Below, one piece after another: positions 6,953 to 53,977 of a stretch of DNA of 54,701 bases. Each line of letters begins with the position of its first letter. The first letter of the stretch is position 1. Source of the DNA: Candidatus Caldatribacterium sp. (GTDB taxonomy: Bacteria; Atribacterota; Atribacteria; Atribacterales; Caldatribacteriaceae); the NCBI GenBank assembly GCA_028275365.1, contig JAPWUU010000004.1:1-54701 (forward strand), read 5' to 3'. The notes below the pieces were generated by a model. It was not told the origin of the DNA and made no database searches. It was given only the letters and a program-made list of their open reading frames with translations. The translations under genes and the position numbers were made by a program.

Positions 6953-6963
6953 GACGTTTCTCC

Positions 6964-7446: not shown

Positions 7447-7513
7447 TCCCTTTCGCCTCCTTCGCGAGTGTCTTTTTCATTCCAATACCTCTATGGAAAA
7501 GCGCCTGTTCCCC

Positions 7514-8551: not shown

Positions 8552-8563
8552 CCTTACCCCTCC

Positions 8564-10148: not shown

Positions 10149-10158
10149 AGGCGACCTT

Positions 10159-10188
10159 ATTGTAACACATTGCCTTTTCCTCCCTCAA
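10159..10188 (-). promoter_or_regulatory. Candidate parA promoter
   Basis: On the minus strand TTGAGG (10188-10183) and TACAAT (10164-10159) are separated by 18 nt; TG also precedes the -10 box. A start about 7 nt past the -10 would leave only a few bases before the ATG at 10148 and would exclude the Shine-Dalgarno. Either the message is nearly leaderless or parA is read from upstream. Confidence 0.35.
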
Positions 10189-11150
10189 CCGGAAGGGAAC
10201 CGGGCGAGGAAGAGCCCAAGACCGAGAAGGAAGAAGGCAAGAAAGACAAGCCATTCCCCTGGCCGGTCCTTTTTTGAGAGAAGAAGCGCAAGCCCAAAGA
10301 GTACCGGAACGCCGGAGGGTGGGAAGAGGTACGGGCGGAGAAATGCTACCCCGAGCATCCCCAGGGCAAAGACCGCCTGGGAGAGCCCTCCGGAAAGGAG
10401 CGCCCCGAGGAACGGAGCGGCAAGGAGCACCTCAGAGGGTTGAAGGGCAAACGAGGGTTTCTCGAGGGCAAGGAAAGCCCCAAGGCTCAGCGCAGGGTCA
10501 AGGAAGGGGAGGAGCGGATACCCCCCGTAGACCCAGCCAAAGAAGAGGCTCATCCCTCCAAAGAGCAGGAAGGGAGAGAGGGCGAGGATGACGTGCGTTC
10601 CCCGCCGAAGCCAGGACGCTTCAACAGACAGTACCGTACAGAGAGCGAAAATGGGAAGGAGCCAGAAACCCACGGGGTGGCAGAGTGCCGAAAGCCCGAG
10701 GGCAAGGTTCCCCAGAAAACGCGCGGTGTGGTCGTCTTCGGCCCTTTGGAGTCCAGAGAACCCGAAGGCCAGAAAGAGCGCACCCATGGTGAAGGCGGGA
10801 GATGACAAAACCAGGGCGAGGAAAGGCAGGGAGAAAAAGAGGAGTACTGAGGCGATGAACTTTCGCCCTCTCAGGGCGCACAGCCCCCCAGAGACGGTGA
10901 GGCCTCCGGCCACCACGGGGAAGAAGTCTCGAAAGAGGAAGGCGAAAAGCGTGGTAAGGCACGGGGTGGTGGTGATGATGCCCCGAGCGGGGTCAGGGAG
11001 GGCAAGGAGGGTGGGAATCCGGAGGGAAAAGAAACGGAGCTCCGGAGAGTTCTGCAGGGCGAAGGTGTCCTGGGCAAAGCGCTGGAGGGCAAGGAGGATG
11101 GCGGTGGTGGTGCCGGAAAGGGCGATGAAACCTGCCCAGGGTCGTCTCAT
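10185..11150 (-). CDS. Polytopic membrane protein, unknown function
   Basis: The 321-residue protein is almost wholly hydrophobic, with about 9-10 predicted membrane segments (for example FIALSGTTTAILLAL, FIASVLLFFSLPFLALVL, WLVFLAFFLLGLGLFLARF). No enzyme motif is evident. Short polar loops and a topology reminiscent of GT-C or O-antigen-type membrane proteins are compatible with a glycan-handling role, but this is inference from context. Its ATG overlaps the glycosyltransferase stop as ATGA, so it is translationally coupled to the polysaccharide synthase genes. Much longer readings of this frame run into the glycosyltransferase gene and are not credible. Confidence 0.75.
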   Translation of the reverse strand: MRRPWAGFIALSGTTTAILLALQRFAQDTFALQNSPELRFFSLRIPTLLALPDPARGIITTTPCLTTLFAFLFRDFFPVVAGGLTVSGGLCALRGRKFIASVLLFFSLPFLALVLSSPAFTMGALFLAFGFSGLQRAEDDHTARFLGNLALGLSALCHPVGFWLLPIFALCTVLSVEASWLRRGTHVILALSPFLLFGGMSLFFGWVYGGYPLLPFLDPALSLGAFLALEKPSFALQPSEVLLAAPFLGALLSGGLSQAVFALGMLGVAFLRPYLFPPSGVPVLFGLALLLSKKDRPGEWLVFLAFFLLGLGLFLARFPSG

Positions 11151-12997: not shown

Positions 12998-14979
12998 AGC
13001 GGTCGCAGGCGCACGAGTTTCCGGTAGAGCACCGCACACCACACGCCTAAAACCCCACAGGCACCGGCGAGGATGAAGAGCCGGAAACGCCAGAGCAGTT
13101 CAAGGAAACCGGAAGGCGAAGAGGGGGAAGTCGCCTGCGTTTCGCCAAAACCGCGCAGGGTGAAGAGGGCAACATTGCCCTGGAGTGTCCGCAGGGTCTC
13201 TGCCCCCTTGAAGTGCCTGAGGAACGCCGCAAGAGCCAGGTCTTTTCGTCCTGAGGTGAAAAGGTAAAGCGCCGGCTTTCGGGAGAATTCCCCCACGGTG
13301 AGGGCGCTCCAGGGGTCATCAGGGGAGAGCGCAAAGGTCTCAAGGCCGAAAAGGTGCGAGAGGGTAAGAGTGTCTCCTGCGAGTGCCGCGGGTGCTTCGG
13401 GGAGGAGTCCCTCGGGGTGACCGATGATGAGGAAGTACTCGGGAAGCACAGGGGGTGGGGAGAAGAGAAGGCGGAAATTTCCGGTTTTGAGCCATTTTGC
13501 AATTACGGCAGGATTCGGGAAGGAGGTGGGTTGTCCTCTTCGGAAAGCCTTCAGGTCTTTTGGGAAAAGGACCTCAAGGGCAAGTGGCGTAGCGTCGATT
13601 TCCCGCAGGGCTCCGTAGATTCTCCCTGCCACCTCAAGCTCCTCGAGGGACGGATTTTCGGGGAGTACCACGTAGGCTTTCCCTGAAAAGAGGGTTGGAG
13701 CATCGGCGAAGGTGAGAGGTGCTTCGCCTTTTGCAAGCATCCCGGAGAAGTACGAGTCCTCGAAAATTGTGGCCTCAAAGGGCATGGTCCCCCGGCGGCA
13801 GTTCCCCACCTCCGGGAAGTACGAGAAGGCAAGCTCCAGGGCGTTCTCCCGGCCAAGGAGCCTCGCCGGGAGGAAGATGCGCTCCTTCCGCACGGCTTGC
13901 CTTGCCCCGGAGGGGATTTTCCGGACAAAGACCAGGCTGCCATTCAGAAAAACCTTGAGGAAAGCCTCACCGCGGGGGGTTTCAGGAAGCGGCGTGCTTG
14001 CCCAAAAGAGCGTGAGCCAGAGGGACCGGGGAACTCCACCAAGATCGGCAAGGGTGAAGTACAACCTTTCGCGGAGGTCGCCGATGCCCCGCAGGGTCGT
14101 GTTCCGAAAACCGAAGTCCCTGAAGGTCCTCCTCGACTCCCGGGCAAAGAGCACACTCCGTACCCTGAAGGACTGTCCCACAAAGAGTGGGGATTCGGCG
14201 ATGAGCCCGTCGACTCCCCTGGGGGTAAGGTAGAGGGTGTTCCCCGAAAGTTCCACGTCCCGGAGTGCCTGTTCCCGGAGGACGATCCACCGCTCCTTCG
14301 GAGTGGCCTCCTCAGACCTCCTGAGTGCCCCCGGGGGGTCAGTGTGGATGGTCACCGGAAGCCCCCGGAAGTTCCGGCGAAGGAAAGCGTAGAGTTTCAG
14401 GTAGGCGCCGCAGAGGGGCTGGGACCAGGGGGCTTCAGGAAGGACGAGGTGGAAGTGCCTGGCCGGAAGGCGCAGGAAATCCCGAACGGTCCACGTTGCT
14501 TTGCTAAGACTCAGGTTCAGGGTGCTGTCCTTCCGGATGTGGAGGAAGAGGTCTTCGGCGAGGAGGTCCTCGCAGAGGTTGTCGCTTTTCCTCAAGGTTG
14601 CCCGGATTTCGAGCTTCACCGTGTCCCCGAAGGAAGAATCCGCCAGGGAGCTCAGGGGGATGCGGAGCTCGTGTTCTCCCGGGAAGATGCGGAAGGCGGC
14701 AAGGAAGACGTCCTCACCGTACACCATGAGGGTGGAGTCCTCCCCGCACGCTGGAGTGGCGGCGTACCGGAGGGTCAGGGAACTCTCCCTGAAGGAGGTT
14801 TTCGGGAAAACCGGGAGGTAGAGCGCAAGCGACGGCGAGGGTCCCGCAAGGATTGCGTCCGTCCGGAGACCTGCGCATTCCTCGAGGGTGAAGGAGAGCC
14901 GTAGCTCTTCCCCCCATGCGAAAGCACAGGCAAACGCCACAAGGGCAAGCAGTATGCCAAAGAGCACCCAGGACTTCAT
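12994..14979 (-). CDS. BcsB-like periplasmic polysaccharide synthase subunit
   Basis: The 661-residue protein starts with a signal peptide (about 1-23: MKSWVLFGILLALVAFACAF). It has a long beta-rich periplasmic part and ends with one membrane helix (FILAGACGVLGVWCAVLY) followed by basic residues. This architecture, an internal flavodoxin-like pattern around YVVLPENPSLEELEVAGRI, and pairing with a BcsA-like GT2 fit the BcsB family, which guides nascent cellulose through the periplasm. Overall similarity to true BcsB is low, so the polymer need not be cellulose. The ATG overlaps the isomerase stop by 4 nt. A longer reading of the frame only adds residues without a ribosome site. Confidence 0.78.
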   Translation of the reverse strand: MKSWVLFGILLALVAFACAFAWGEELRLSFTLEECAGLRTDAILAGPSPSLALYLPVFPKTSFRESSLTLRYAATPACGEDSTLMVYGEDVFLAAFRIFPGEHELRIPLSSLADSSFGDTVKLEIRATLRKSDNLCEDLLAEDLFLHIRKDSTLNLSLSKATWTVRDFLRLPARHFHLVLPEAPWSQPLCGAYLKLYAFLRRNFRGLPVTIHTDPPGALRRSEEATPKERWIVLREQALRDVELSGNTLYLTPRGVDGLIAESPLFVGQSFRVRSVLFARESRRTFRDFGFRNTTLRGIGDLRERLYFTLADLGGVPRSLWLTLFWASTPLPETPRGEAFLKVFLNGSLVFVRKIPSGARQAVRKERIFLPARLLGRENALELAFSYFPEVGNCRRGTMPFEATIFEDSYFSGMLAKGEAPLTFADAPTLFSGKAYVVLPENPSLEELEVAGRIYGALREIDATPLALEVLFPKDLKAFRRGQPTSFPNPAVIAKWLKTGNFRLLFSPPPVLPEYFLIIGHPEGLLPEAPAALAGDTLTLSHLFGLETFALSPDDPWSALTVGEFSRKPALYLFTSGRKDLALAAFLRHFKGAETLRTLQGNVALFTLRGFGETQATSPSSPSGFLELLWRFRLFILAGACGVLGVWCAVLYRKLVRLRPL

Positions 14980-26872: not shown

Positions 26873-28741
26873 TTACAGGCACATCCTGAGAATGGCCAGA
26901 ACGTCTTCTTTTTCGAGTTTTTTCACCGAGCCCAAAGGCCCTCGTTTTGTGGCCTTTTCCGCCATGGTTTCGAAAAGCTCCTCCCCAATGCCCACTTCCC
27001 GAAGTGTTGTGGGAGCACCGATTTCCCGGAACCACTCCCGGGTCCTTTCAATGCCGGCCCTTCCGAGGTCTTCGTCGCTTCGGTTCGCGCGGGGGATGCC
27101 CCACACCCGCTCGGCGAACTGGGCGAATTTCCCCGGGATTTCGTCAAGGACGTACGTCATCCACTGGGGAAAAACGATGGCTAGACCCGCCCCGTGGGGA
27201 ATGTCGTAGAAGGCGCTCAATTCGTGCTCGATGTCGTGGCTTGACCAGTCGCCCTCAACACCCGCTTCGATGAGGTGGTTGAGGGCCAGTGTCCCACACC
27301 ACATGATGGTGGCCCGGGCATCGTAGTCTTTGGGGTTTTCGAGGACTCTCGGGGTGTACTCGATGATGGTCTTCATGATACTTTCTGCCAGGCGGTCCTG
27401 GAGGGGGGTTTCGGGGGTCTTGTGGAAGTACTGCTCGAACACATGGGCCATCATGTCCACAATGCCGTAGACGGTGTGGTCTTTCGGGACGGTGAAGGTG
27501 TTTTCAGGGTCAAGAATCGACACATCGGGGAAAAGCGCCGGATGCCCGAGTCCGAGCTTCTCTTTCGTTGCTTCGTTCGTGATGACCGCATTGTGGTTCA
27601 TCTCTGAACCCGTGGCCGCCAGAGTCAGAACGGTCACAAGGGGAATCCTCCCGGGGACCTTGCTCTTGTCGATGAAGAAGTCCCAGGGGTCACCCTCGTA
27701 GCGCGCCCCGGCGGCGATGATTTTGGCGCTGTCGAGGACGCTTCCGCCACCCACAGCGAGCACAACCTCGATGTTCTTCTCTTTGCAGAGCCTCACTCCT
27801 TCTCTGACCTTGCTCAGGGTAGGATTGGGCTTGATACCTGGAAGCTCAAAGACCTCGAGGTTGTGCTGGGTGAGGCTCTGCTGGAGCCGGTCGTAAAGTC
27901 CTGTCTTTTTGATGCTGCCACCGCCGTACACGAAGAGCACCCTTTTCCCAAACCCAGCACAGATTTCACCAACACGGTCTGTGGTCCCTTTCCCAAAGAG
28001 TACCCGTGTGGGATTGTGGAATTCGAAGTTCTCCATCGTCTCAACCCCCTCTTCGGGTATTGTACCATGGGGTGGGTGCTTTTTGAGGACGAGAAGCGAA
28101 AGGTACGAAATCCCCTCAAAAGAAGAGGGAGAGAACGTCAGGCGGTTTACCCCTCCCAGGTCTTCCCCGAGAAGGCAGAGGGGGAACTTTGCCGAAAGGC
28201 GCCTGAGGGATTCTCTGTCTTTCAGAGCGGTGAGCTTGTAGAGGATTAGAGTGTCGGAAAGCTCAGCGAGTGCCCCGAGCCTGTCTTCGGGGAGGGTTGC
28301 GGGGGCAAGGGTGAGGACTTCCTCTTTCTGGGTGAGGGGCAGGGTGGCGTACGCTGCCGCCAGCTGAAAGGCGCTGATCCCGGGAATGACCTCTAAGGTG
28401 AGGTCCGGAAGGAGCGTGCGGAGAGCAGAAAAGAGGCGGAAAAACGACGAGTAGAGAAGGGGGTCTCCAAGGACGAGGAACACCGCTTGTTTATGGTGTC
28501 CGGAGGAAATCGCCCCGACAACTTCCCGGGCAAGGGCAGCGAAATCCTCCTGGTCGTGAAAGGGAAGGAACACGACCTGGGTGTCTTTGGGGAGGAATTC
28601 TTTGACGGTCCGGTACGCCCGGCTCTCTCCGGATCGGGCAAGGGGAGCAAAGACGAGGCGAGCCTTCCTGAGGCATCTTATGGCCCGGAGGGTGAGAAGG
28701 TCCGGTTCCCCAGGACCGGTCCCGATGAGGATGAGCTTCAC
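26873..28741 (-). CDS. cbiL: Fused frame: CbiL (cobalt-precorrin-2 C20-methyltransferase) + iron-type alcohol dehydrogenase
   Basis: One uninterrupted 622-residue frame starts at a GTG overlapping the cbiGH stop (GTGA). Residues 1-235 are CbiL: KLILIGTGPGEPDLLTLRAIR, VLGDPLLYSSFFRLF and EVIPGISAFQLAAA are the SAM-binding and substrate motifs of tetrapyrrole methylases. From M236 (28036) onward lies a complete group III iron-containing alcohol dehydrogenase of the YqhD/BdhA type: MENFEFHNPTRVLFGKGT, VLAVGGGSVLDSAKIIAAG, and the metal ligands in DMMAHVFEQY and HDIEHELSAFYDIPHGAG. No stop codon separates them. A promoter-like TGGTACAAT and a Shine-Dalgarno precede M236. Hence the dehydrogenase (387 residues, 26873-28036) may also, or mainly, be made alone. 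A lost cbiL stop is the simplest origin. Confidence 0.88.
   Translation of the reverse strand: MKLILIGTGPGEPDLLTLRAIRCLRKARLVFAPLARSGESRAYRTVKEFLPKDTQVVFLPFHDQEDFAALAREVVGAISSGHHKQAVFLVLGDPLLYSSFFRLFSALRTLLPDLTLEVIPGISAFQLAAAYATLPLTQKEEVLTLAPATLPEDRLGALAELSDTLILYKLTALKDRESLRRLSAKFPLCLLGEDLGGVNRLTFSPSSFEGISYLSLLVLKKHPPHGTIPEEGVETMENFEFHNPTRVLFGKGTTDRVGEICAGFGKRVLFVYGGGSIKKTGLYDRLQQSLTQHNLEVFELPGIKPNPTLSKVREGVRLCKEKNIEVVLAVGGGSVLDSAKIIAAGARYEGDPWDFFIDKSKVPGRIPLVTVLTLAATGSEMNHNAVITNEATKEKLGLGHPALFPDVSILDPENTFTVPKDHTVYGIVDMMAHVFEQYFHKTPETPLQDRLAESIMKTIIEYTPRVLENPKDYDARATIMWCGTLALNHLIEAGVEGDWSSHDIEHELSAFYDIPHGAGLAIVFPQWMTYVLDEIPGKFAQFAERVWGIPRANRSDEDLGRAGIERTREWFREIGAPTTLREVGIGEELFETMAEKATKRGPLGSVKKLEKEDVLAILRMCL
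28036..28067 (-). promoter_or_regulatory. Internal promoter and ribosome site of the alcohol dehydrogenase
   Basis: Within the linker between the CbiL and dehydrogenase parts the minus strand reads TGGTACAAT (28067-28059), then GAGGGGG (28051-28045), then ATG (28036-28034). Spacing of -10, predicted start (about 28052), Shine-Dalgarno and ATG is workable. This supports separate expression of the dehydrogenase. Confidence 0.55.
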
Positions 28742-30420
28742 CACCGGTACCCCCTCGGAACGATGAGGACATCGCCGAAACTCTGAACGCCTCTTGGGGG
28801 GATAAGGAGAAGGCACGACATATCGAGGTCTTCAGGACGGAGATCACAAATTCTCGCCACGCGTTTTTGTCCTCCTTTCCGCGCAATCCCTACCGGGAGA
28901 TCCTGGCCCCGTGCTCTGGCGAAAGTTTCCCTGAGGAAGGCGATTTTCTCTTCTTTCCCCCGCCCGACGATGTTGTACACAGAAACGGTAAGGTCGGTTT
29001 CGGCGAGCCGTTCAAGGTTTCTCTGGATTTCTTCCCAGGGAGTGAGGTAGTCGCTCAGGCTCACTGCAGCGAAGCCCTTCACAAGGGGAGACCCGAAAAG
29101 AGCCGCAGCGGAGGATACAGCACTCACCCCAGGAACGACACGGAAGGGAACCCCCTCTCCCTGGGCCATTTCAAGCGCCGGCGAAACCGCTCCGAAGACC
29201 CCGACATCCCCTCCAGAGACAAGAGCGACAATGCTACCGCATCGGGCAAGACGCACGGCTTCTTTCGCCCGCTCCACCTCTTGCTTCATCTGGGAGAAAC
29301 GGTGGAGGGCCCTTCCCTGAAAGCGCGGGGGAAGAAGATCAAGGTACGCCCTGTACCCCAGGATGACCTCCGCCTCCTCTAAGGCCTCCAGGGCTTCGAG
29401 GGTTATGGTGTTTGCCCCATCTCCTAAGCTGACAAGGAGCAGGCTCCCCCTTCGGGACCACGGTTTCCTCCCCAAAGCCAGCGCAACCTCGGGATACACG
29501 GTTTTGGGGACAAGGAGCGTGTACCCCCGGGCAAGGAGCACCGGTTCAGCCACTCCCGGAAGGCCAAGGTGTTTTTCGGCGCAGGGTGAGGGCGAGGGGG
29601 CAGGGATGTTTCGGAGGACGTCCTCGTCAACAAGAACGCTCTGCACCCCAAGTTTCTCCGCAAGGAGGGCGAGGTCTTTCGCTTTCCGGCTGATGCTCAC
29701 GAGTTCTCCCAAAGAGGCGAGGGCAAAGCCCTGACGTTCAAGGAAATCCCTGATGCAGGCGACCAGGTGTTCGGTGTCATGCACCTTTCGAAAGCCAAGG
29801 CCCACGGCAAGGGTTTTCGGCCGGAGGAAGAGCGCAGGGGTCTCCGGAAAGAGCCGTTCGCTCAGCACAAGACAGGTTTGGGGTAGCGGCCCGGTGAGGG
29901 GCCTTGTGTCGTAGCCGGGAAAGGGCAAAAGGGGAAAAGGGTCGTCAACGAGGAGGGGAACCCGATCTCCGCGGGCAAGAAGACCGAGGATTGCCTTCTC
30001 GCACTCCCGGTCTCCCTCAAGGGCACACCCCAGGCGCTCGGCGAGTTCCCTGGGGGTGAAAACGCCAAAGGCTTCAGAAGCCGTAGTCAGCACTGCCTGA
30101 GCTTTCAGGAAACGGGCGAGGCGAAGGGCAAGGGCATTCACCCCCTTTTCATGCCCCCCACAAAGGGGGATGACGAAGTCTCCGGAACCTGGAATGCAGA
30201 GGATTCCCGGGTCTTCCTTCTTGTCCTTGAGGAAGGGTGCTATGAACCGGACAACGATACCCAGGCTTCCGATGCACACGAAAAGATCGGCATCCTCCCA
30301 GAGTTTCTCGAAAGCTTCCCTTGGTGGACCACTCCAGAGGAGGGCCTGCTCCCCGAAGAAGTCCAGTATGGTCTTCTCAAGGAAGGAAGAGGCAACGCAG
30401 GGAACGATGACGACCGTCAT
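28738..30420 (-). CDS. cbiGH: CbiG-CbiH fusion: cobalt-precorrin-5A hydrolase / precorrin-3B C17-methyltransferase
   Basis: The 560-residue protein fuses two steps of anaerobic corrin synthesis. The N-terminal half is CbiG: GSLGIVVRFIAPFLKDK and PLCGGHEKGVNALA in its first domain, and LAVGLGFRKV at the start of its C-terminal domain near 235. It opens the delta-lactone and releases acetaldehyde. The C-terminal half (about 330-560) is CbiH: SLGDGANTITLEALEALEEAEVILGYRAYLD, VSGGDVGVFG and VPGVSAVSSAAALFG, which methylates C17 and contracts the ring. The ATG overlaps the cbiF stop (ATGA). The acetaldehyde by-product is of interest because the BMC operon in this window handles acetaldehyde. Confidence 0.94.
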   Translation of the reverse strand: MTVVIVPCVASSFLEKTILDFFGEQALLWSGPPREAFEKLWEDADLFVCIGSLGIVVRFIAPFLKDKKEDPGILCIPGSGDFVIPLCGGHEKGVNALALRLARFLKAQAVLTTASEAFGVFTPRELAERLGCALEGDRECEKAILGLLARGDRVPLLVDDPFPLLPFPGYDTRPLTGPLPQTCLVLSERLFPETPALFLRPKTLAVGLGFRKVHDTEHLVACIRDFLERQGFALASLGELVSISRKAKDLALLAEKLGVQSVLVDEDVLRNIPAPSPSPCAEKHLGLPGVAEPVLLARGYTLLVPKTVYPEVALALGRKPWSRRGSLLLVSLGDGANTITLEALEALEEAEVILGYRAYLDLLPPRFQGRALHRFSQMKQEVERAKEAVRLARCGSIVALVSGGDVGVFGAVSPALEMAQGEGVPFRVVPGVSAVSSAAALFGSPLVKGFAAVSLSDYLTPWEEIQRNLERLAETDLTVSVYNIVGRGKEEKIAFLRETFARARGQDLPVGIARKGGQKRVARICDLRPEDLDMSCLLLIPPRGVQSFGDVLIVPRGYRW

Positions 30421-44641: not shown

Positions 44642-45940
44642 TCACAGGACTTTTTGAAGCCGAAGGTCGAGGTCCACAAGGTTGAATGCCCGGAAGTACT
44701 TGTCGAGGGCACGTTCAATGGCTGTGAGGACGATGTCCTCCGGGAAGTACCCGTTTCTTTTCAGGTTCTCGTAAAGCAGCACCCTTTTTGCCACCACTTC
44801 CGGCTGGGCCCAGATGTACCGGCATCCTGTTTTCACCAGCCACATTTTCCGCTCTCTGGGGAGTTCCAGGAGGTCCTTCCCCATTTCTTCGGGGAGGAGC
44901 CATTTCTTCCAGCGGCCGCTTTTGCGGACTTCCTGAGTGAGGACCTCAAGGATTTCCGATTTCTCGACCACCAGCTTCCGGGCAAAGAGCTCCTCTTCTA
45001 TGTGGGCGAGCTCAGCCAGGGCGTTGTACTCCTCTTCGGTGAACTCCGGGCCCACGTTGGCCGCCCCCATGCCCGATTTCGGATAGTCCTCGGGGTTCTC
45101 CACGTAGTCGGTGTAGTGTCCCTTGATGAAAGACCCATACGATCGGGCCTTTTCGGAAAGCAGCCGGGCAACCTGGGGGTCAAAGAGGGTGGTGTGGAGG
45201 TCTGTTCCTACCTTCCCCACCACGAAAATCGGCCAGACTTCCCCAAGTCCCCGAGCCTTCAGGGCGTCTTTGAGCCCGGAGAGGAACCGCTCGAAAACCC
45301 CAAGGTCCGCCAGCCCCCCATGGACTTCCTCGGTTCCCACTTCATAGGAGATGGGAGGAAGCCCCCGCTTTTTCCGATGGTTTTCCGCGTGCTCGATGAG
45401 TTCTACCGTCCGTGCAATAACCGTCTCTACAGGAAGCGTCGTTCCGGGAGGCAGGGTTCGGTCCACGGTGGGGTCAACGTGGAGGAGGTCGTACCCTGCG
45501 TCAAGCGCGGCTTCAAACGACCGCTTCACCCAGTCCATGCACGTTTTGAGGTCCCACCCTTCAATGGTGTGCCGGTCCTTCACCCACGGTCCCCCATGGT
45601 CCAGGGCGATGATGATGAGCCCTTCAAAGTGGATGGCCTCGGCCTCCTGTTTCACGAGCTCCACGAATTCCCTCTGGGTGAGCCCCGTGTACCCCCGGTC
45701 GATATCCACCTGGTTCAGTGTGGCGGCGAACTTCACCGGGGCCCGGGCCCGTTTGGCTGCCCGCAGGGCTGCCCGGATGACCGTCCGGGAGTTGGGGCAC
45801 ACGGCAAGGAGTGTCTGGGGTTTCCCCTCAAGCTCTGCCAGCTCCTGCATTTTCTGCATCAGGAAATCACAAACCGGGATACCGGCCTTTTGAGCTTTCT
45901 TCCGGATAGGGCTTGCGTCAACCGTTTCGCGGGGGAACAT
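44642..45940 (-). CDS. GatZ/KbaZ-like protein (tagatose-bisphosphate aldolase subunit family)
   Basis: The 432-residue protein resembles GatZ/KbaZ, the so-called non-catalytic subunits of class II tagatose-1,6-bisphosphate aldolases. It has FAATLNQVDIDRGYTGLTQREF, IALDHGGPWVKDR, LLHVDPTVD, and SYEVGTEEVHGG with PIFVVGKVGTDLHTT. No GatY/KbaY aldolase partner is nearby, so it may act alone; some GatZ-like proteins are sugar (phosphate) epimerases. It starts with GGAAGGAGG upstream, 15 nt after a PfkB sugar kinase, implying a two-gene ketose/ketose-phosphate unit. It lies back to back with the BMC operon and may feed it. Confidence 0.82.
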   Translation of the reverse strand: MFPRETVDASPIRKKAQKAGIPVCDFLMQKMQELAELEGKPQTLLAVCPNSRTVIRAALRAAKRARAPVKFAATLNQVDIDRGYTGLTQREFVELVKQEAEAIHFEGLIIIALDHGGPWVKDRHTIEGWDLKTCMDWVKRSFEAALDAGYDLLHVDPTVDRTLPPGTTLPVETVIARTVELIEHAENHRKKRGLPPISYEVGTEEVHGGLADLGVFERFLSGLKDALKARGLGEVWPIFVVGKVGTDLHTTLFDPQVARLLSEKARSYGSFIKGHYTDYVENPEDYPKSGMGAANVGPEFTEEEYNALAELAHIEEELFARKLVVEKSEILEVLTQEVRKSGRWKKWLLPEEMGKDLLELPRERKMWLVKTGCRYIWAQPEVVAKRVLLYENLKRNGYFPEDIVLTAIERALDKYFRAFNLVDLDLRLQKVL

Positions 45941-45955
45941 CCTCTTCCTCCTTCC

Positions 45956-46891
45956 TTAAAGACGTTCCAGGAATGCTTCCACCTCTTCCCAGGTCGGGGC
46001 TCCTTCCATGGGACCCTTTCTGGTCACCGCCAGGGCTCCCACGGCATTGGCGAACCTCCCCGCCTCCTCCACGCTCATCCCCCGGGAGAGGGCTGCCAGG
46101 AACCCGGCACAGTAACAGTCTCCTGCCCCTGTGGGGTCGACTTCCTCCACAGGGAAGGCCGGAAGCGTGTACACTTCCTTCCTCGTTACCACGGTGGACC
46201 CCCGCTTTCCCTGTTTGATGGCCACAATCTCCGGACCTTCTAAGAGCACCTTCTCTGCAGCCCTCAGGGGATCTTGCTCTCCGGTGAGGACGGAGAGTTC
46301 CTCTTCGGTGGGGAAAACGATGAAACTCTCCCTGAGAATGGGCAGGAAGAGCTCCCGGGCTCGGTCTTTCCCTAAAAGCTCGGGCCTGAAGTTGGGGTCA
46401 AAGCTCACGCGCTTTTTCGCTTCCCGGACGATACGGATAGCCTTCTCGTAAGAAGCTCGACAGTTCTCGTTGATGAGCATGGTGGAGCCCATGACGTGCA
46501 GGAGGTCTACTTTTACGAAATCCTCCTCCCGCACGTCCTCGGGGAATATCTGTCCTGAAGCTGCCCGGGAAATGTGGTAGATGAACTTCCGGGAACCATC
46601 GCTGAAGTAGGTCACAAAGGCCACTCCGGTGGTGAAGTCGTCAAGGATTTTGATGCCTGAGGTGTCCACTCCGTCTTTTTGCAGCCGCTCAAGAACGAGA
46701 AAGCCGAAATCGTCTCGCCCAATGGCACCGACGAAAAAGACCTCGCCTTTCAGGCGGGCCAGGCAATCAGCAAAAATTGCCGGAGCTCCGCTGGGGTACG
46801 GCCCGAGGAAAACCCCGGGAACACCCAGAGGAACGTCCACCTTATCCCGCATGATTTCTACAAGGAGTTCTCCCATGCATCCCACGCGCAT
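45956..46891 (-). CDS. PfkB-family sugar kinase
   Basis: The 311-residue kinase has the ribokinase-like N-terminus (GCMGELLVEIM), substrate loop YPSGAPAIFADCLARL, and the C-terminal DPTGAGDCYCAGFLAALS with the GAGD catalytic motif. It most resembles the 2-keto-3-deoxygluconate/fructokinase-like branch, but the substrate is not certain. AAAGGAGG precedes the ATG. It is divergent from the BMC operon, whose promoter begins 83 nt away, and followed by the GatZ-like gene. Confidence 0.9.
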   Translation of the reverse strand: MRVGCMGELLVEIMRDKVDVPLGVPGVFLGPYPSGAPAIFADCLARLKGEVFFVGAIGRDDFGFLVLERLQKDGVDTSGIKILDDFTTGVAFVTYFSDGSRKFIYHISRAASGQIFPEDVREEDFVKVDLLHVMGSTMLINENCRASYEKAIRIVREAKKRVSFDPNFRPELLGKDRARELFLPILRESFIVFPTEEELSVLTGEQDPLRAAEKVLLEGPEIVAIKQGKRGSTVVTRKEVYTLPAFPVEEVDPTGAGDCYCAGFLAALSRGMSVEEAGRFANAVGALAVTRKGPMEGAPTWEEVEAFLERL

Positions 46892-47084: not shown

Positions 47085-47411
47085 ATGGGCGAAGTCTACT
47101 CAGATGCTCTGGGCATGATTGAGACCCGTGGGTTTGCGGCGATGGTGGAGGCAGCTGACGCTATGGTCAAAGCGGCAAAGGTGGAACTCGTCGGATACGA
47201 AAAGATTGGTGGAGGGTACGTCACCGCCATCGTGCGAGGGGACGTGGCAGCAGTGCGGGCGGCTCTCGATGCCGGACAGGTTGCGGCGGCAAAGGTTGGA
47301 GAGGTTGTCTCCGTCCATATCATCCCGCGTCCTCATCCGAATGTGGACGAGGTTCTTCCTCTTGGTCGAGGCGGCAAGAAGAAGGACATCACCATCGGTG
47401 AAAAGGATTGA
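47085..47411 (+). CDS. BMC-H hexameric shell protein (PduA/EutM-like)
   Basis: The 108-residue protein is a single Pfam00936-type BMC domain. It starts [24 protein letters not shown], has the edge lysine and pore loop KIGGG in [21 protein letters not shown], and [11 protein letters not shown] at the end of the fold. A charged tail ([15 protein letters not shown]) follows. Hexamers tile the facets of the shell and their pore passes small metabolites. It is the only BMC-H in the operon and the first gene, with AAAGGAG upstream, so it is likely the most abundant product. Confidence 0.97.
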
Positions 47412-47429
47412 GAGGGAGAACATTACCCC

Positions 47430-47738
47430 ATGATTCTCGCCAGAGTGGTGGGGACGGTCGTTTCCACCCGCAAAGAGGAGAAAATCAAGGGCATCAAGTT
47501 TCTGCTCCTTGAGAAAATTGACCCCGTGACGCTCCAGGGGAAAGGGGATTACCTTGTGGCCATGGACTGTGTCGGGGCGGGAAAGGGAGAAATTGTTTTC
47601 TACGTTTCAGGGAGCAGCGCCCGGATGACTGCTATCACCGAGGGTAAACCAAGCGATGCCGCCATTGTGGCGATTGTGGATGAAATTGAAGTCGACGGGA
47701 AAGTGGTGTACCAGAAGGACGCCGTTGTGACCACGTGA
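47430..47738 (+). CDS. BMC-P pentameric vertex protein (EutN/CcmL), copy 1
   Basis: The 102-residue protein is a Pfam03319 EutN/CcmL-type vertex protein: MILARVVGTVVSTRKEEKIKGIKFLLLE, then VAMDCVGAGKGEIVFYVSGSSAR and IVAIVDEIEVDGK. Pentamers cap the icosahedral vertices. It is the first of four such paralogs in the operon and follows the BMC-H gene by 18 nt. Confidence 0.95.
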   Translation: MILARVVGTVVSTRKEEKIKGIKFLLLEKIDPVTLQGKGDYLVAMDCVGAGKGEIVFYVSGSSARMTAITEGKPSDAAIVAIVDEIEVDGKVVYQKDAVVTT

Positions 47739-47752
47739 CCAGAGGAGAAGGC

Positions 47753-48052
47753 ATGATTCTGGCTAAGGTTGTTGGAACGGTGGTGGCAAGCCAGAAAAAC
47801 GATGGTATTACCGGGGGGAAGTACCTTCTGGTGCGGGCCTGCGATACCCGGGGGAGAGAAAAGGGCGAGTACCTGGTGGCCCTTGACCTTGTGGGGAGTG
47901 GGAGAGGCGAGGTTGTCCTTATCTCCCAGGGGAGTTCGGCTCGCCAGACCGAGTTCACCTACCAGAAGGCCATAGACTGTGTCATTGTCGGCATCGTGGA
48001 TCGCATAGAAGAGAACGGCCAGGTCGTCTTCCGGAAGGAAGAAGGGCGATGA
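47753..48052 (+). CDS. BMC-P pentameric vertex protein (EutN/CcmL), copy 2
   Basis: The 99-residue EutN/CcmL protein has MILAKVVGTVVASQKNDG, LDLVGSGRGEVVLISQGSSARQ and IVGIVDRIEENGQ. The start at 47753 follows AGAGGAGAAGGC and matches where paralogs begin; a frame extension to 47735 is not needed. Its stop overlaps the pduS start (ATGA). Residue differences from copy 1 in the vertex-pore region suggest distinct vertices rather than redundancy. Confidence 0.95.
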   Translation: MILAKVVGTVVASQKNDGITGGKYLLVRACDTRGREKGEYLVALDLVGSGRGEVVLISQGSSARQTEFTYQKAIDCVIVGIVDRIEENGQVVFRKEEGR

Positions 48053-49368
48053 CAGTTCCCGAAGCCGTCAAAGCCATGGGAGTGGTCGGTGCAGGAGGGG
48101 GAGGCTTCCCTACCCATGTGAAGCTCTCTCGCTCCGTTGAGGTGGTCATTGCCAACGGTGCGGAGTGCGAGCCGCTTCTTGGGAACGACAAGCTCGTCAT
48201 GGAAGAGGAAGCAGAAGCAGTGGTTGCGGGTCTCTGTCTCGCCATGGAAGCGACCGGGGCCAGAAAGGGCGTCATTGCTCTGAAGGGCAGAGGTTCTCCC
48301 GCGGAGGAAGCCCTCCGGAAAGCCTCTCAGGGGAAAGAAGGCCTCAGCATTTTCCCTCTGGGCGATTACTATCCGGCGGGAGACGAGTTCCTGCTCGTGC
48401 GGGAGGTCACCGGGCGTATTGTTCCCGAAGGAGGGATCCCTCCTTCGGTTGGCGTGGTGGTGCTGAACGTTGAGACGCTCCGGAACATTGCCCGGGCTGT
48501 GGAAGGGAAACCGGTGATCGAGCGCACTCTGACCTGTCAGGGGGAAGTTCGCCGGCCTTCGGTCCTCCGGGTGCGGGTGGGGACACCCTTTGAGAAGGTT
48601 CTGGAGTACTGCGGCGGCGCCACGGTGGACGACTTCGTCCTCCTTGTGGGAGGGCCGATGATGGGGTTGGTGACCACCGACCTGAAGGCTCCGGTAACGA
48701 AGACGACTTCGGGTCTTTTTGTCCTCCCCCGGGACCATGTTCTCGTGCAGAAGAAAACCCTGCCCCTTCCCTTCATCATCAGGCAGAGCAAGACCGCCTG
48801 CTGCCAGTGCACGTACTGTACGGAGTTCTGCCCCCGGTATCTTCTGGGGCATGACCTGGCTCCACACAAGATCATGCGGCAGATTGCCCTTGGGCTCGAT
48901 GTGCCCCCTGAAGTCATCGAGCGTGCGGTGCTCTGCAGCGAGTGTGGCCTGTGTGAAATTGCCTGTCCGATGGAGCTTTCTCCGAGGCTGGTGAACCGGG
49001 CGATCAAAGAGCAGTTCCTCAGGATGCAGTATCGACCGGTGTTTCCTCAAAGAGCTCTACAGACCCGTGTGGACTTTCCGTACCGGAAGGTCCCGATCTT
49101 GCGGGTCAAGGGGAGAATTCGGGTTGAAGAGTACGAGAAACGCCCGCTTTTCCGGATGCGGGAGGTTCCGCCACCGGAACGGGTTGAGCTTCTCCTGAAG
49201 CAGCACGCGGGAGCTCCGGCTCAAGCAGTGGTTAGGGTAGGGGATGTAGTGCAGGAGGGAGACCTTGTGGGAGAGGCGGAGCAAGAGGTCAGTGCCCGTG
49301 TGCATGCCAGCATCGGAGGGCGTGTCGTCTTTGTCGATGACGAGCGAGTGGTTATTGAGGCCCGGTAG
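48049..49368 (+). CDS. pduS: PduS-like flavin/iron-sulfur electron-transfer protein (RnfC family)
   Basis: The 439-residue protein has the RnfC/NuoF-like N-terminal GVVGAGGGGFPTHVKL, ANGAECEPLLGNDKLV (flavin/NADH region), and an SLBB-type middle. Two Cys-rich ferredoxin clusters follow, CCQCTYCTEFCPRY and CSECGLCEIACP (about 245-310), with a biotinyl-like SLBB end. In the Pdu compartment PduS carries two 4Fe-4S clusters, binds flavin and interacts with the PduT shell protein. Here it is the only obvious NADH-oxidising component of the operon. It overlaps the upstream BMC-P stop by 4 nt. Confidence 0.94.
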   Translation: MTVPEAVKAMGVVGAGGGGFPTHVKLSRSVEVVIANGAECEPLLGNDKLVMEEEAEAVVAGLCLAMEATGARKGVIALKGRGSPAEEALRKASQGKEGLSIFPLGDYYPAGDEFLLVREVTGRIVPEGGIPPSVGVVVLNVETLRNIARAVEGKPVIERTLTCQGEVRRPSVLRVRVGTPFEKVLEYCGGATVDDFVLLVGGPMMGLVTTDLKAPVTKTTSGLFVLPRDHVLVQKKTLPLPFIIRQSKTACCQCTYCTEFCPRYLLGHDLAPHKIMRQIALGLDVPPEVIERAVLCSECGLCEIACPMELSPRLVNRAIKEQFLRMQYRPVFPQRALQTRVDFPYRKVPILRVKGRIRVEEYEKRPLFRMREVPPPERVELLLKQHAGAPAQAVVRVGDVVQEGDLVGEAEQEVSARVHASIGGRVVFVDDERVVIEAR

Positions 49369-49381
49369 CTGAGGTGGACGA

Positions 49382-49936
49382 ATGGACATCGTCGTTCTGG
49401 GAGCACTGGAATTCAATTCCATCGCCATAGGCATCAAGGCCCTGGATGCCATGGTGAAGGCTGCACCGGTGAGGGTTGTTGACGCGAAGACCATCTGTCC
49501 AGGGAAATTCCTCATCGTGGTGAGTGGTGAAGTGGCCGAAGTTGACGCCTCGCTCACCGCGGGGAAAGAAGCCGGAGAAGGTTGCGTGGTGGACGAGCTC
49601 TTCATTCCCAATCTCCATCCCCAGGTTATCCCGGCCATTCTGGGGACGGTGGTCTGCGAGATGTGGGATGCCGTAGCGGTGGTCGAGTCCTTTTCGGCCA
49701 TCGCCAGCATTGAGGCGGCCGATGTGGCGGCAAAGACGGCCGATGTCCTCATTACCGAAGTGCGTCTGGCGGTGGGTATGGGTGGGAAATCGTACGTGAA
49801 GATGATGGGGGATGTCCACGAGGTGGAGGCAGCCGTCTCAGCAGCGAAAACAGTGATTTCCCAGCGGGGACTCCTCTGCAAGGAGGTCATCATCCCCAGT
49901 CCCCATCCCGATATCCGGCCGTACTTCCTCTTTTGA
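49382..49936 (+). CDS. pduT: BMC-T trimeric shell protein, PduT-like with pore cysteine
   Basis: The 184-residue protein has two fused BMC domains (about 1-90 and 95-180). In the first, C39 lies in TICPGKF, the position of PduT Cys38 that ligates a 4Fe-4S cluster at the pseudo-hexamer centre. The second ends IIPSPHPDIRPYFLF. It would form a shell tile that conducts electrons across the shell, next to pduS. AGGTGG precedes the ATG. Confidence 0.95.
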   Translation: MDIVVLGALEFNSIAIGIKALDAMVKAAPVRVVDAKTICPGKFLIVVSGEVAEVDASLTAGKEAGEGCVVDELFIPNLHPQVIPAILGTVVCEMWDAVAVVESFSAIASIEAADVAAKTADVLITEVRLAVGMGGKSYVKMMGDVHEVEAAVSAAKTVISQRGLLCKEVIIPSPHPDIRPYFLF

Positions 49937-49951
49937 AGGTGGGGTTGACGT

Positions 49952-51391
49952 ATGGAGGTTAAAGAAGCCGATATCCGCTCCATTGTGGAGCAGGTGATTG
50001 AGAGACTCGAAAAAACCGGGGTGCTCCCGAGGGCTCCAGAAGTTCGGGGAGAACCCCCTCTGCGGGGTGTTGGGGTTTTCGAGAACATCGAGGATGCGGT
50101 GAGGGCGGCCCGGAAGGCTCATGAGAAACTCATGGAGCTCCCCCTTGAAACCCGTCGTAACATTATCCGTGCCATCCGGAAGGTCTCTGTGCGGGAAGCG
50201 GAAACCCTTGCCCAGATGGCCCACGAGGAGACGGGAATGGGTCGCGTGGCGGATAAGGTCGAGAAGAACCGCCTCGCCGCCCTGAAAACACCGGGAGTGG
50301 AGGACCTTGAGCCCATGGCCTTCACCGATGAACATGGGCTCACCCTTGTCGAGCGGGCACCCTACGGGGTGATTGCCTCCATCACTCCGTCCACCAACCC
50401 CACCTCCACCATCATCAACAACACCATCAGTATGGTGGCAGCAGGAAATGCCGTGGTTTTCCATCCCCATCCGGGGGCAAAGCGCTCATCCTGCGCTACC
50501 GTGACGCTTCTCAACGAGGCTATTGTCGAAGCCGGGGGTCCCGAGAACCTCGTCTGCGCCATCGGGAACCCCACCCTTGAGTCTGCTCAGGCACTCATGA
50601 AGCATCCCATGGTCCGCCTTCTTGTGGTCACCGGTGGGGGAGGGGTGGTCCAGGCGGCTATGGCGAGCGGCAAGAAGGTTATTGCTGCCGGCCCCGGAAA
50701 TCCTCCCTGCGTGGTGGACGAGACGGCCGATATTGCCAAGGCGGGTCGGGATATCGTCCTCGGTGCCGGTTTCGACAACAACATCGTCTGCGTCTGTGAG
50801 AAGGAAATCCTCGTGGTGAACGAGGTTGCCGAAGACCTCGAGAAGGCCATGGAATTCAACGGAGGTTTCCGGCTCAACCGGCGCCAGATGGAGGAGGTCA
50901 CGCGCCTGGTCATCGATGAACCAGGAGGACCGGGAAGGCCCGGGAAGCCGAAAAGGGAGTGGGTTGGAAAGGATGCGTCCCTTATTGCCCGGGAAATCGG
51001 CCTTCGGGTTCCCGAGAACACGAGAATTCTCTTTGGTGAAGTCGATCGGGATAACCCCCTGGTCTGGACGGAGCAGTTGCTCCCTGTGATCCCTGTTGTG
51101 CGTTTCCACAACGTGGAGGAAGCCATGGAGTTTGCCGTGGAGTGTGAGCACCATTTCCGGCACACGGCGGTCATGCATTCCCGGAATATCGCCAATCTCT
51201 CGAGAATGGCGAAGATGATGGACTGTTCCATTTTTGTGAAGAACGGCCCGGCGTACAGTGGGCTCGGGAAGGGCGGCGCTGGTTTCACCAGTTTCACCAT
51301 TGCTACCCCCACCGGGGAGGGTCTCACCCGCGCCCGGACCTTCACCCGGGAGCGGCGCTGCACCCTGGTGGACTACTTCCGCATCGTGTGA
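49952..51391 (+). CDS. CoA-acylating aldehyde dehydrogenase (PduP/EutE-like)
   Basis: The 479-residue enzyme is a PduP/EutE-type dehydrogenase that turns an aldehyde, CoA and NAD+ into acyl-CoA and NADH. The catalytic Cys is C253 in GPGNPPCVVDETADI. ITPSTNPTSTIINNTI and FHPHPGAK are typical family segments, as is the RARTFTRERRCTLVDYFRIV C-terminus. Residues 1-23 (EVKEADIRSIVEQVIERLEKTG) form an amphipathic helix joined by a Pro-rich linker, as in encapsulation peptides. Acetaldehyde from the aldolase is the likely substrate. Confidence 0.96.
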   Translation: MEVKEADIRSIVEQVIERLEKTGVLPRAPEVRGEPPLRGVGVFENIEDAVRAARKAHEKLMELPLETRRNIIRAIRKVSVREAETLAQMAHEETGMGRVADKVEKNRLAALKTPGVEDLEPMAFTDEHGLTLVERAPYGVIASITPSTNPTSTIINNTISMVAAGNAVVFHPHPGAKRSSCATVTLLNEAIVEAGGPENLVCAIGNPTLESAQALMKHPMVRLLVVTGGGGVVQAAMASGKKVIAAGPGNPPCVVDETADIAKAGRDIVLGAGFDNNIVCVCEKEILVVNEVAEDLEKAMEFNGGFRLNRRQMEEVTRLVIDEPGGPGRPGKPKREWVGKDASLIAREIGLRVPENTRILFGEVDRDNPLVWTEQLLPVIPVVRFHNVEEAMEFAVECEHHFRHTAVMHSRNIANLSRMAKMMDCSIFVKNGPAYSGLGKGGAGFTSFTIATPTGEGLTRARTFTRERRCTLVDYFRIV

Positions 51392-51402
51392 GGAGGAAAA
51401 CC

Positions 51403-51684
51403 GTGAGGATTGCCAGAGTCATTGGAACCGTTGTGGCAACACAAAAAGTCCCCTCTTTCGAGGGGGTGAAACTGCTTCTCATTCAACCGCTCGATGAGCA
51501 TCTGCGCCCGGTGGGGTCACCGATTGTCGCCTGTGACACGGTGCAGGCTGGACCCGGGGATATCGTATTCTATGAAGGGGGACGGGAGGCAGCACTTGCC
51601 CTTCCCAACTGGTTTAATCCTTCGGATTGTACCATTATGGGAATCATCGATGCGGTGCAGGTTGAGGGGGGCGAACCCTCGTGA
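51403..51684 (+). CDS. BMC-P pentameric vertex protein (EutN/CcmL), copy 3
   Basis: The 93-residue protein starts at a GTG with GGAGG 7 nt upstream. It has RIARVIGTVVATQKVPSFEG, CDTVQAGPGDIVFYEGGREAA and IMGIIDAVQVEGG. It shares 'FxGVKLLLIQPLDE' with copy 4, so copies 3 and 4 are closer to each other than to 1 and 2. It begins 11 nt after the dehydrogenase stop. Confidence 0.93.
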   Translation: MRIARVIGTVVATQKVPSFEGVKLLLIQPLDEHLRPVGSPIVACDTVQAGPGDIVFYEGGREAALALPNWFNPSDCTIMGIIDAVQVEGGEPS

Positions 51685-51947
51685 TGCTTGGAAAGGTTGT
51701 GGGCAACGTGGTGGCAACGGCAAAGCTCCCCATCCTCCAGGGCCTGAAAATCATGGTGGTGCAGCCCATCGATGCGGTGGGGAAACCCAGGGGCCAGACG
51801 CTCCTTGCCTTTGATATGGTCCAGGCAGGGATTGGGGATACGGTGCTTGTGATCGATGAGGGGAATTCCTGCCGGACGATTCTTGGCGATCCTCAGGCAC
51901 CAATCCGAATGCTCATCGTGGGAATCGTGGATGAGATTGAGCAGTAG
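51684..51947 (+). CDS. BMC-P pentameric vertex protein (EutN/CcmL), copy 4
   Basis: The 87-residue protein reads MLGKVVGNVVATAKLPILQG, FDMVQAGIGDTVLVIDEGNSCR and IVGIVDEIEQ. The start is the ATG at 51684 (overlapping the upstream stop as TGATG) or the GTG at 51681. It is the shortest of the four vertex paralogs and lies just before the core enzyme genes. Confidence 0.93.
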   Translation: MLGKVVGNVVATAKLPILQGLKIMVVQPIDAVGKPRGQTLLAFDMVQAGIGDTVLVIDEGNSCRTILGDPQAPIRMLIVGIVDEIEQ

Positions 51948-51958
51948 GGGGAGAGACG

Positions 51959-52522
51959 ATGCCAGAACGGAGCTTTTCCCGAGTCGTCCAGAACGTGGTG
52001 GGAGGGCTGCATGCCCTGGGGACTCCCCCAAAGACCGAGCCTGACCCCGTGAACCAGAAGGACCATGTGGTACGGGTGGCCATTGGCTCGGACCACCGGG
52101 GCTTCGAGGCAAAGGAAATCCTCAAGCGGTACCTCACCTCTTTGGGGTACCGGGTGTACGATGTGGGGACATTCAGCGGAGACCAGAGCGTGGATTACCC
52201 GGACTTTGCCGTGAAGGTGGCGCAGAAAGTCGCCTCTGGGGAGTGCGAACGGGGAATCATGATTGACGGGATGGGCATCGGTTCCTGTATGGTGTGCAAT
52301 AAGGTGCGGGGCATTCGGGCGGCGCTCTGCTATGACCGGGACAGCGTCATCAACAGCCGCGAGCACAACAACGCCAATGTCCTCACCCTTGGAGCTCGAC
52401 ACTCGCCGGAGGAACTGTGTGAGCTTGTGAAACTCTGGCTTGAGACGCGATTTGCCGGGGGACGGCACTGGTCCCGGGTGAACAAAATCATGGCGGTGGA
52501 GAGGGGTCATTTCGGACCATGA
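51959..52522 (+). CDS. RpiB/LacAB-family sugar-phosphate isomerase, microcompartment-associated
   Basis: The 187-residue protein has an RpiB fold from about residue 37 ([66 protein letters not shown]). The residue that is the catalytic Cys in classical RpiB (CGTGIG) is Asp here, D103 in DGMGIG. So the base and perhaps the substrate differ from ribose-5-P. Residues 1-36 are an extension absent in plain RpiB: an amphipathic stretch ([18 protein letters not shown]) plus a Pro-rich linker, a likely encapsulation peptide. GGGGGAGAG precedes the ATG; deoC overlaps by 4 nt. Confidence 0.9.
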
Positions 52523-53307
52523 ATCGAGAAGAGCTTATCGAGCGGGTAACAAAAGAGGTATTGGCCAGGCTTCAGGGTGTTTCCCGGAGTGAGGAGCAAC
52601 GGGTGCGTGCTCCTCAGAGCTCCTCAGAGTGTACCTGTGACCTTGTTGTGACTCCTTCAGACATTGCCCGCTACATTGACCATACGCTCCTTCGACCTGA
52701 CGCCACAAGGGCAATGATCGAGAAGCTCTGTGATGAAGCTGTGCAGTACCGTTTCTACGCTGTATGTGTGAACCCCTGCTGGGTTGCCCTCTGTGCCAGA
52801 AGGCTTCGCGGGACCGGGGTCAAGGTAGCCACGGTGGTCGGTTTTCCTCTTGGGGCAACCGATAGCCGCACCAAGGCCTTTGAAACCCGCAATGCTATCG
52901 AAAACGGAGCCGATGAAATCGACATGGTCATCAACATCGGAGCGCTGAAATCCCGGGACCTCAAGACCTTCGAAGAGGACCTCTGGGCAGTGAAGCGGGC
53001 CTGCCGTCCCACAACAGTCACCAAGGCCATTATCGAAACGTGTCTTCTCACCGATGAGGAAAAGGTCCTGGCTTCTGAAATTATCAAAAAGGTGGGGTAT
53101 GACTTCGTCAAAACCTCCACAGGGTTCTCCACGGGAGGTGCCACCGCCCGGGATGTCGCGCTGATTCGGAGGACCGTTGGTCCCAAAATGGGGATTAAGG
53201 CTTCAGGGGGCATTCGGACCTTTGAGGACGCAAGGCTCATGATTCTCTCCGGGGCCACTCGTCTTGGGACGAGCGCCTCGGTGAAGATTGTCACGGGAGG
53301 CGAGTGA
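52519..53307 (+). CDS. deoC: Deoxyribose-phosphate aldolase with encapsulation peptide
   Basis: The 262-residue protein is a class I aldolase of the DeoC family that splits 2-deoxyribose-5-P into glyceraldehyde-3-P and acetaldehyde. Schiff-base Lys is K198 in [15 protein letters not shown]227 in [10 protein letters not shown] and D135 in [14 protein letters not shown] complete the active site. Residues 1-20 ([19 protein letters not shown]) are an amphipathic helix followed by a polar linker of about 25 residues, lacking in cytosolic DeoC and typical of encapsulation peptides. Its presence marks this locus as a sugar-phosphate-utilising compartment. Confidence 0.96.
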
Positions 53308-53317
53308 GGGAGAGAAC

Positions 53318-53977
53318 ATGGAGCGCCTCGATGACCTTGTGGCGTACATTGCCGAAATCGTGGTCCAGGAACTCCAGGGCACCCATGAGGCACCGGGGGA
53401 AGCATGTACCATCCCCGTTGAGGTTTCAAACCGCCACTGCCACCTCACAAGGGAGACCTTTGAGGTGCTCTACGGCAAGGGGAAGGAGCTGACTCTACTT
53501 CGGGAACTCTCCCAGCGAGGGGAATTTGCTGCTCAGGAGACGGTGACGCTCGTTGGTCCCAATATGCGCTCCATTGAAGGTGTGCGGATTCTCGGTCCTT
53601 TTCGCAAGTTCGACCAGGTGGAATTATCTTTCACCGATGGGTTTTATCTGGGAATGGACCTCCCGGTTCGTCTGAGTGGGGATGTTGCAGGATCTGCCCC
53701 CATCACCATTGTGGGCCCTAAGGGCTCGGTGACGCTCAAAGAAGGGGCCATCCGGGCCATGCGCCACCTCCATGCAAGCCCGGAAGAAGCAAAGAGGCTT
53801 GGTCTACGAGATGGGGAGAAAATCGCCATAGAGGTGCCCGGACCCATCGGGGTGGTTTTCCAGAATGTGATCGTCCGGGTTTCTCCAAACGGCCGGCTCG
53901 CGTTCCATATCGATACCGATGAGGCCAATGCTGCCGGGGTAAAAAGACAGGGGCTTGGGCGGATTGTGAGGGGGTAA
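53318..53977 (+). CDS. pduL: Phosphate acyltransferase PduL
   Basis: The 219-residue protein is PduL, which converts acyl-CoA and phosphate to acyl-phosphate and regenerates CoA inside the compartment. It has the zinc-binding VSNRHCHLT (usually RHVHLS), MRSIEGVRILGPFRKFDQVELS, and the second histidine site RHLHASPEEAKRLG. An N-terminal amphipathic helix (ERLDDLVAYIAEIVVQELQG) and linker look like an encapsulation peptide. The ATG at 53318 follows GAGGGAGAG; a frame start at 53288 overlaps deoC and is less likely. It is the last gene of the operon. Confidence 0.95.
   Translation: MERLDDLVAYIAEIVVQELQGTHEAPGEACTIPVEVSNRHCHLTRETFEVLYGKGKELTLLRELSQRGEFAAQETVTLVGPNMRSIEGVRILGPFRKFDQVELSFTDGFYLGMDLPVRLSGDVAGSAPITIVGPKGSVTLKEGAIRAMRHLHASPEEAKRLGLRDGEKIAIEVPGPIGVVFQNVIVRVSPNGRLAFHIDTDEANAAGVKRQGLGRIVRG

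Follow-up and report, generated by a model that had tools for sequence, protein, structure and literature searches.

Gene content of the operon

The window analyzed here, the whole 54,701-nucleotide stretch, is one contig (C54) of a Candidatus Caldatribacterium assembly of 1.73 Mb in 169 contigs, 89.65% complete. It carries eleven genes in one plus-strand run, 47085-53977, with several 4-base start/stop overlaps, in the order BMC-H, BMC-P, BMC-P, PduS, PduT-like, aldehyde dehydrogenase (AldDH), BMC-P, BMC-P, RpiB, DeoC and PduL. These genes and two divergent neighbors are as follows.

44642-45940, minus strand: GatZ/KbaZ-like protein, divergent neighbor, candidate feeder gene (domain match)
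45956-46891, minus strand: PfkB sugar kinase, tagatose-kinase-like, divergent neighbor, candidate feeder gene (domain match)
47085-47411, plus strand: BMC-H hexameric shell protein (PF00936 in the own-genome search; EutM-like by NCBIfam)
47430-47738, plus strand: BMC-P shell vertex protein 1 (CcmL/EutN models)
47735-48052, plus strand: BMC-P shell vertex protein 2 (PF03319; overlaps the pduS start)
48049-49368, plus strand: PduS, 439 aa, FMN/NADH-type flavoprotein with two 4Fe-4S motifs and a C-terminal RnfC-type barrel (Pfam domains)
49382-49936, plus strand: PduT-type BMC-T shell trimer protein, 184 aa, with C39 in TICPGKF (BMC domain twice; alignment to 3pac and 3nwg)
49952-51391, plus strand: CoA-acylating AldDH (EutE/PduP type) with predicted N-terminal encapsulation peptide (NF011927, 662 bits; N-terminal helix)
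51388-51684, plus strand: BMC-P shell vertex protein 3 (profile match)
51681-51947, plus strand: BMC-P shell vertex protein 4 (profile match)
51959-52522, plus strand: RpiB-type sugar-phosphate isomerase with a conserved 37-residue N-terminal extension (PF02502 from residue 40)
52519-53307, plus strand: DeoC deoxyribose-phosphate aldolase, the signature enzyme, with a 48-residue N-terminal extension holding a predicted encapsulation peptide (TIGR00126 from residue 49; helix)
53288-53977, plus strand: PduL phosphotransacylase with predicted N-terminal encapsulation peptide (PF06130 from residue 43; helix; likely start ATG 53318)

A DeoC-type aldolase (PF01791) and an RpiB-type isomerase (PF02502) lie among the shell genes at 51959-53307, and the locus holds an acylating AldDH and PduL but no alcohol dehydrogenase (ADH). 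Judged by this gene content, the locus is one that encodes a sugar-phosphate-utilizing (SPU) metabolosome, a microcompartment (BMC) type known from Atribacterota. AldDH, DeoC and PduL each have a clear N-terminal helix, with hydrophobic moments of 0.49-0.56. SPU loci were defined from single-cell genomes of Atribacteria and others by Axen 2014 (PMC4207490), with PduS present in Atribacteria and ADH as the sole absent core enzyme, and Sutter 2021 (PMC8217296) counted more than 280 such loci in 26 phyla and seven subtypes. The present operon has the same DeoC, RpiB, AldDH, PduL and shell genes, shares PduS with the Atribacteria members, and does not differ from them in kind; given the description in PMC4207490, the missing ADH characterizes the SPU type as such and is nothing peculiar to this genome. 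SPU loci with neither PduS nor ADH are also on record (Axen 2014, PMC4207490), and PduS is therefore not obligatory for the type.

Ca. Caldatribacterium saccharofermentans and californiense are the nearest named relatives by PduT, at 97-99% identity; viral contigs queried with PduT yielded no relatives. Two genomes of the same genus (G013 and G014, 99% and 96% complete) yielded no match for PduT, which suggests that not every member of the genus has the compartment. The PfkB and GatZ/KbaZ-like pair (44642-46891, minus strand) is conserved beside the operon in genome G012, as is at least the kinase in genome G015, and the pair possibly feeds the compartment.

PduS and the PduT-type pore protein

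The original prediction described a PduS with two 4Fe-4S motifs and a flavin/NADH-type N-terminus beside a PduT-like tile, at coordinates that proved exact; the genes are adjacent, with 13 bp between them. The domain and motif assignment was borne out by the Pfam domains, in the order Complex1_51K, SLBB, Fer4_17 and then an RnfC_N barrel at residues 370-433, and by the eight cluster cysteines (251/254/257/261 and 296/299/302/306), all invariant in 44 of 44 distinct homologues. In the same homologues, conservation is 95% or higher at the glycines and the FP of the nucleotide-binding motif GxxGxGGxGFP. The closest solved relative, RnfC of Rnf complexes, shares the core domains and both clusters but has the barrel at its N-terminus, whereas here it is C-terminal; the architecture is therefore that of PduS, and the domain order rules out an RnfC identity for 48049-49368. 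PduS and PduT of Citrobacter and Salmonella agree with the present pair in domain order, in their tandem genes and in the cysteine motif of the pore; their Pdu compartment differs in having its own ADH, PduQ, and a B12-dependent signature enzyme. C. freundii PduS oxidizes NADH, carries two coupled 4Fe-4S clusters and also binds and reduces cobalamin (PMC2982820), and it binds and co-purifies with PduT (PMC6325248).

C39, predicted to occupy the known PduT ligand position, indeed pairs with the cysteine of Citrobacter PduT (3pac) and with that of 3nwg in gap-free alignments (42-45% identity). The protein is a tandem BMC-T, and its CPGKF fits the published pore motif C-P/S/A-G-K/R/S-Y/F (PMC6325248). 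By alignment, then, C39 is the PduT cluster-ligand position, a putative 4Fe-4S site in the pore. The best NCBIfam model, TIGR02526 (eut_PduT), scores 112.9 bits, under its curated cut-off of 250.3, and we therefore use the safe name of PduT-type homologue rather than that of a curated equivalog. An electron-transfer role for the PduS/PduT pair is well supported.

Of 50 Atribacterota genomes, 25 have a PduT, and 47 loci emerged when about 85,000 species genomes were scanned; being driven by PduT, the scan covers PduT-bearing loci and is silent on SPU loci without PduT. Non-duplicate loci with pduS and deoC on one contig number 28 (19 Atribacterota or near-identical, 6 Spirochaetota, and one each from Ruminococcaceae, Elusimicrobium and a Cyanobacteria-labelled MAG), and they thus extend PduS/PduT-bearing SPU loci beyond Atribacteria, the only group in which Axen 2014 reported PduS. 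Of 50 distinct PduT homologues, 49 retain the cysteine; the scan patterns omitted this residue, so for the scanned loci its conservation is no artifact of the search. Its sole loss is in the second BMC-T copy of the Elusimicrobium locus L123 (BMC-T genes at 14191-14739 and 9989-10537), which does not adjoin PduS; the PduS-adjacent paralogue retains the cysteine, which is what a PduS-PduT wire predicts. At every locus with room upstream pduS precedes pduT in tandem, except at L119. There (6442-10534), the cysteine-bearing PduT-like gene has no PduS in its locus and adjoins an FlpD/MvhD, iron-sulfur and flavin oxidoreductase module.

Other features of the related loci were also noted. The DeoC of the Cyanobacteria-labelled SPU locus (L118, 483-1316) has an N-terminal CxxCxxCxxxCP ferredoxin-like motif, and that of L123 (15803-16759) has a Cys-rich N-terminal region too; in both proteins Pfam recognizes DeoC only. 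One SPU locus lies on a Flavobacteriales-labelled contig (L091) and encodes a PduT 90% identical to that of the window, so labelled probably because an Atribacterota contig was misnamed or mis-binned. Related loci add genes for sugar uptake, a PfkB kinase, an RhaA-like isomerase, a glycerol-kinase-like protein, a GatD-like polyol-phosphate dehydrogenase or a triosephosphate isomerase, an indication that sugars or polyols are broken down to supply the compartment.

Alcohol dehydrogenases in the operon, the assembly and related loci

In canonical metabolosomes an encapsulated ADH recycles NAD+. Open reading frame, profile and domain searches found no ADH gene in the operon (47085-53977), in agreement with the original prediction, and an Fe-ADH does occur on the same contig. 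Across the 28 non-duplicate pduS and deoC loci, a profile search found no Fe-ADH inside any operon; as a positive control, a model from which EutG had been left out detected EutG in the E. coli eut operon at 3e-76. In one relative (L055), an Fe-ADH lies about 6 kb away from the operon.

Assembly-wide, profiles matched five Fe-ADHs, one of them in the window, and twelve Zn-ADHs. A cargo-tagged ADH elsewhere in the genome had been named beforehand as evidence that would speak against electron exit, and inspection of the ADHs one by one gave none among those readable in this incomplete assembly. In ADHs with a clear start, the catalytic domain begins at or near the N-terminus and no amphipathic tag precedes it; the check is less certain for three Zn-ADH frames with uncertain or overlong starts and for one cut by a contig end.

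The Fe-ADH of the window (26873-about 28036, minus strand) lies 19 kb from the operon within a cobalamin-synthesis cluster. We rejected it as a hidden compartment ADH on account of this setting, its in-frame fusion to a CbiL-like gene, and its close homologues in the two same-genus genomes without a PduT match, the last of which leaves it untied to the compartment. The CbiL-like precorrin methyltransferase and the YqhD-like Fe-ADH form one open 647-residue frame (26873-28816, minus strand), also open in genome G015 at 95% identity; in G013 and G014 the Fe-ADH stands alone. In five Atribacterota loci (L055, L059, L060, L065, L067) a GatD-like Zn dehydrogenase lies directly 3′ of PduL, often accompanied by a glycerol-kinase-like gene. 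It is unlikely to be the missing ADH, being an untagged relative of galactitol-1-phosphate dehydrogenase that does not occur in the present locus.

No EutE-type acylating AldDH other than that of the operon was found in the assembly; a weak Aldedh match on contig C6 proved by sequence to be ProA beside ProB. The assembly also holds two acetate kinase genes and four FeFe-hydrogenase matches.

Proposed electron exit and its alternatives

The gene set suggests the following scheme. Inside the shell, DeoC would cleave deoxyribose-5-phosphate to acetaldehyde and glyceraldehyde-3-phosphate, and AldDH would oxidize the acetaldehyde to acetyl-CoA with formation of NADH. RpiB cannot turn a 2-deoxy-aldose into a ketose. 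PduL would return CoA and yield acetyl phosphate, from which a cytosolic acetate kinase would make acetate. PduS, docked on PduT, would oxidize lumenal NADH through FMN and two 4Fe-4S clusters and pass single electrons to a pore cluster held by the three C39 residues of PduT, which would hand them to a cytosolic acceptor. In other metabolosomes NAD+ is recycled by an ADH, a task that this route would take on at least partly. We consider it somewhat better than an even chance that NADH electrons of this SPU metabolosome leave by way of PduS and the PduT pore cluster in this manner. The explanation is favored because the PduS cluster cysteines, its FMN/NADH-site glycines and the PduT cysteine are conserved, because pduS and pduT stand in tandem while the 28 loci hold no Fe-ADH and the readable ADHs no tag, because two acetate kinases are encoded and C. 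freundii PduS both oxidizes NADH and binds PduT, and because the neighboring sugar uptake, kinase and isomerase genes fit sugar catabolism.

There are energetic objections to such a scheme. Measured potentials are -150 to -262 mV for PduS and +99 mV for PduT (PMC2982820, PMC6325248), downhill from NADH, so that ferredoxin and H+ are out of reach and a high-potential acceptor is required. At these values, the NADH electrons of a hydrogen-producing fermenter would be wasted unless another acceptor took them, although the Caldatribacterium potentials may differ. No electron acceptor is encoded adjoining the locus, and Atribacter laminatus does not use nitrate, ferric iron or sulfate; with potentials too positive for ferredoxin or H+, the acceptor is a real gap in the scheme.

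What stands of the original interpretation is that the operon lacks an ADH, that its PduS/PduT pair is intact and conserved together, and that no readable ADH of the genome is tagged. The claim that all NADH is reoxidized across the shell is not supported, given that the Pdu ADH is encapsulated without a tag and that the measured potentials are wasteful without a high-potential acceptor. Nor is the claim of a purely oxidative, all-acetate compartment, since a reductive model has been published for Atribacteria and cultured relatives form ethanol.

Ethanol bears on a rather unlikely alternative, in which an untagged ADH piggy-backs into the shell, or acetaldehyde or NADH leaks to cytosolic ADHs, and PduS and PduT play a minor part. 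The Pdu ADH is itself tagless and interacts with the tagged AldDH (PMC6325248), and the present assembly has the five Fe-ADH and twelve Zn-ADH matches. A. laminatus forms trace ethanol and T. velox some, and as the only EutE-type AldDH is that of the compartment, acetaldehyde may escape to cytosolic ADHs. The GatD-like dehydrogenase 3′ of PduL in five relatives could be read the same way, but it is an untagged polyol-phosphate dehydrogenase relative foreign to this locus; the lack of any Fe-ADH inside the 28 operons and the occurrence of the window Fe-ADH in PduT-free genomes likewise argue against this alternative.

Less probable again is a compartment run in reverse, in which AldDH uses NADH to reduce acetyl-CoA to acetaldehyde, DeoC condenses this with glyceraldehyde-3-phosphate, and PduT and PduS bring electrons in. 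As cited in PMC6281690, the Nobu 2016 model gives AldDH this reductive, NADH-consuming direction in Ca. Caldatribacterium and JS1. The cargo reactions are all reversible in principle, and the four FeFe-hydrogenase matches together with sugar-fermenting relatives suggest a need for NADH sinks. On the other hand, the genes nearby for uptake, sugar kinases and isomerases suggest catabolism, PduL and acetate kinase favor ATP-yielding acetate formation, and the known PduS/PduT potentials are too positive for NAD+ reduction.

It is very improbable that PduS serves here as a cobalamin reductase, as in Pdu, or is a relic, a reading offered by Axen 2014 (PMC4207490): the C. freundii enzyme does reduce cobalamin (PMC2982820) and a cobalamin-synthesis cluster lies about 13-20 kb upstream in the window, but the operon has neither a B12-dependent enzyme nor PduO, and strict conservation of the cluster ligands and the PduT cysteine over several phyla is not relic-like. 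The least credible proposal, that PduS itself reduces aldehyde to alcohol as an enzymatic substitute for ADH, exists as a published suggestion only (Axen 2014, PMC4207490; the C. phytofermentans fucose study) and is at odds with domains typical of an NADH:FMN iron-sulfur electron carrier, whose closest solved relatives are RnfC electron-transfer subunits.

Electron exit through PduS and PduT, the reading we prefer, was stated as a hypothesis by Ferlez 2019 (PMC6325248), and a 2021 Bilophila study (PMC8667426) proposed it for an ADH-free acetaldehyde compartment; work on Listeria has connected extracellular electron transfer with a PduT-like protein (PMC8547011). The isethionate BMC of Bilophila wadsworthia (GRM type) likewise converts acetaldehyde to acetyl-CoA with PduS and PduT and no ADH gene, but it is built around a different signature enzyme, isethionate-sulfite lyase, in a host that can pass electrons to a respiratory acceptor. 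As the SPU type and the electron-exit hypothesis are both published, the present locus is a further example and the hypothesis is not new. What is new is the absence of Fe-ADH from 28 loci alongside PduS cysteines kept in 44 of 44 homologues and the PduT cysteine in 49 of 50, the added value being this test of co-conservation.

A standing question of the BMC literature is how a metabolosome that has no ADH renews the NAD+ of its private pool, and this locus offers a compact case, with one candidate route from PduS to PduT and no rival ADH in the operon. Because Atribacterota have been cultured and the Caldatribacterium proteins are probably thermostable, electron export is open to spectroscopy and product analysis. 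We put forward only tentatively, and with some doubt, that SPU compartments with PduS and PduT, in Atribacterota, Spirochaetota and other groups, may form an ADH-free class whose sole means of NAD+ regeneration, in fermentative cells, is electron export through the PduT pore cluster. If true, electron conduction would be a main function of the shell, of use for wiring synthetic compartments.
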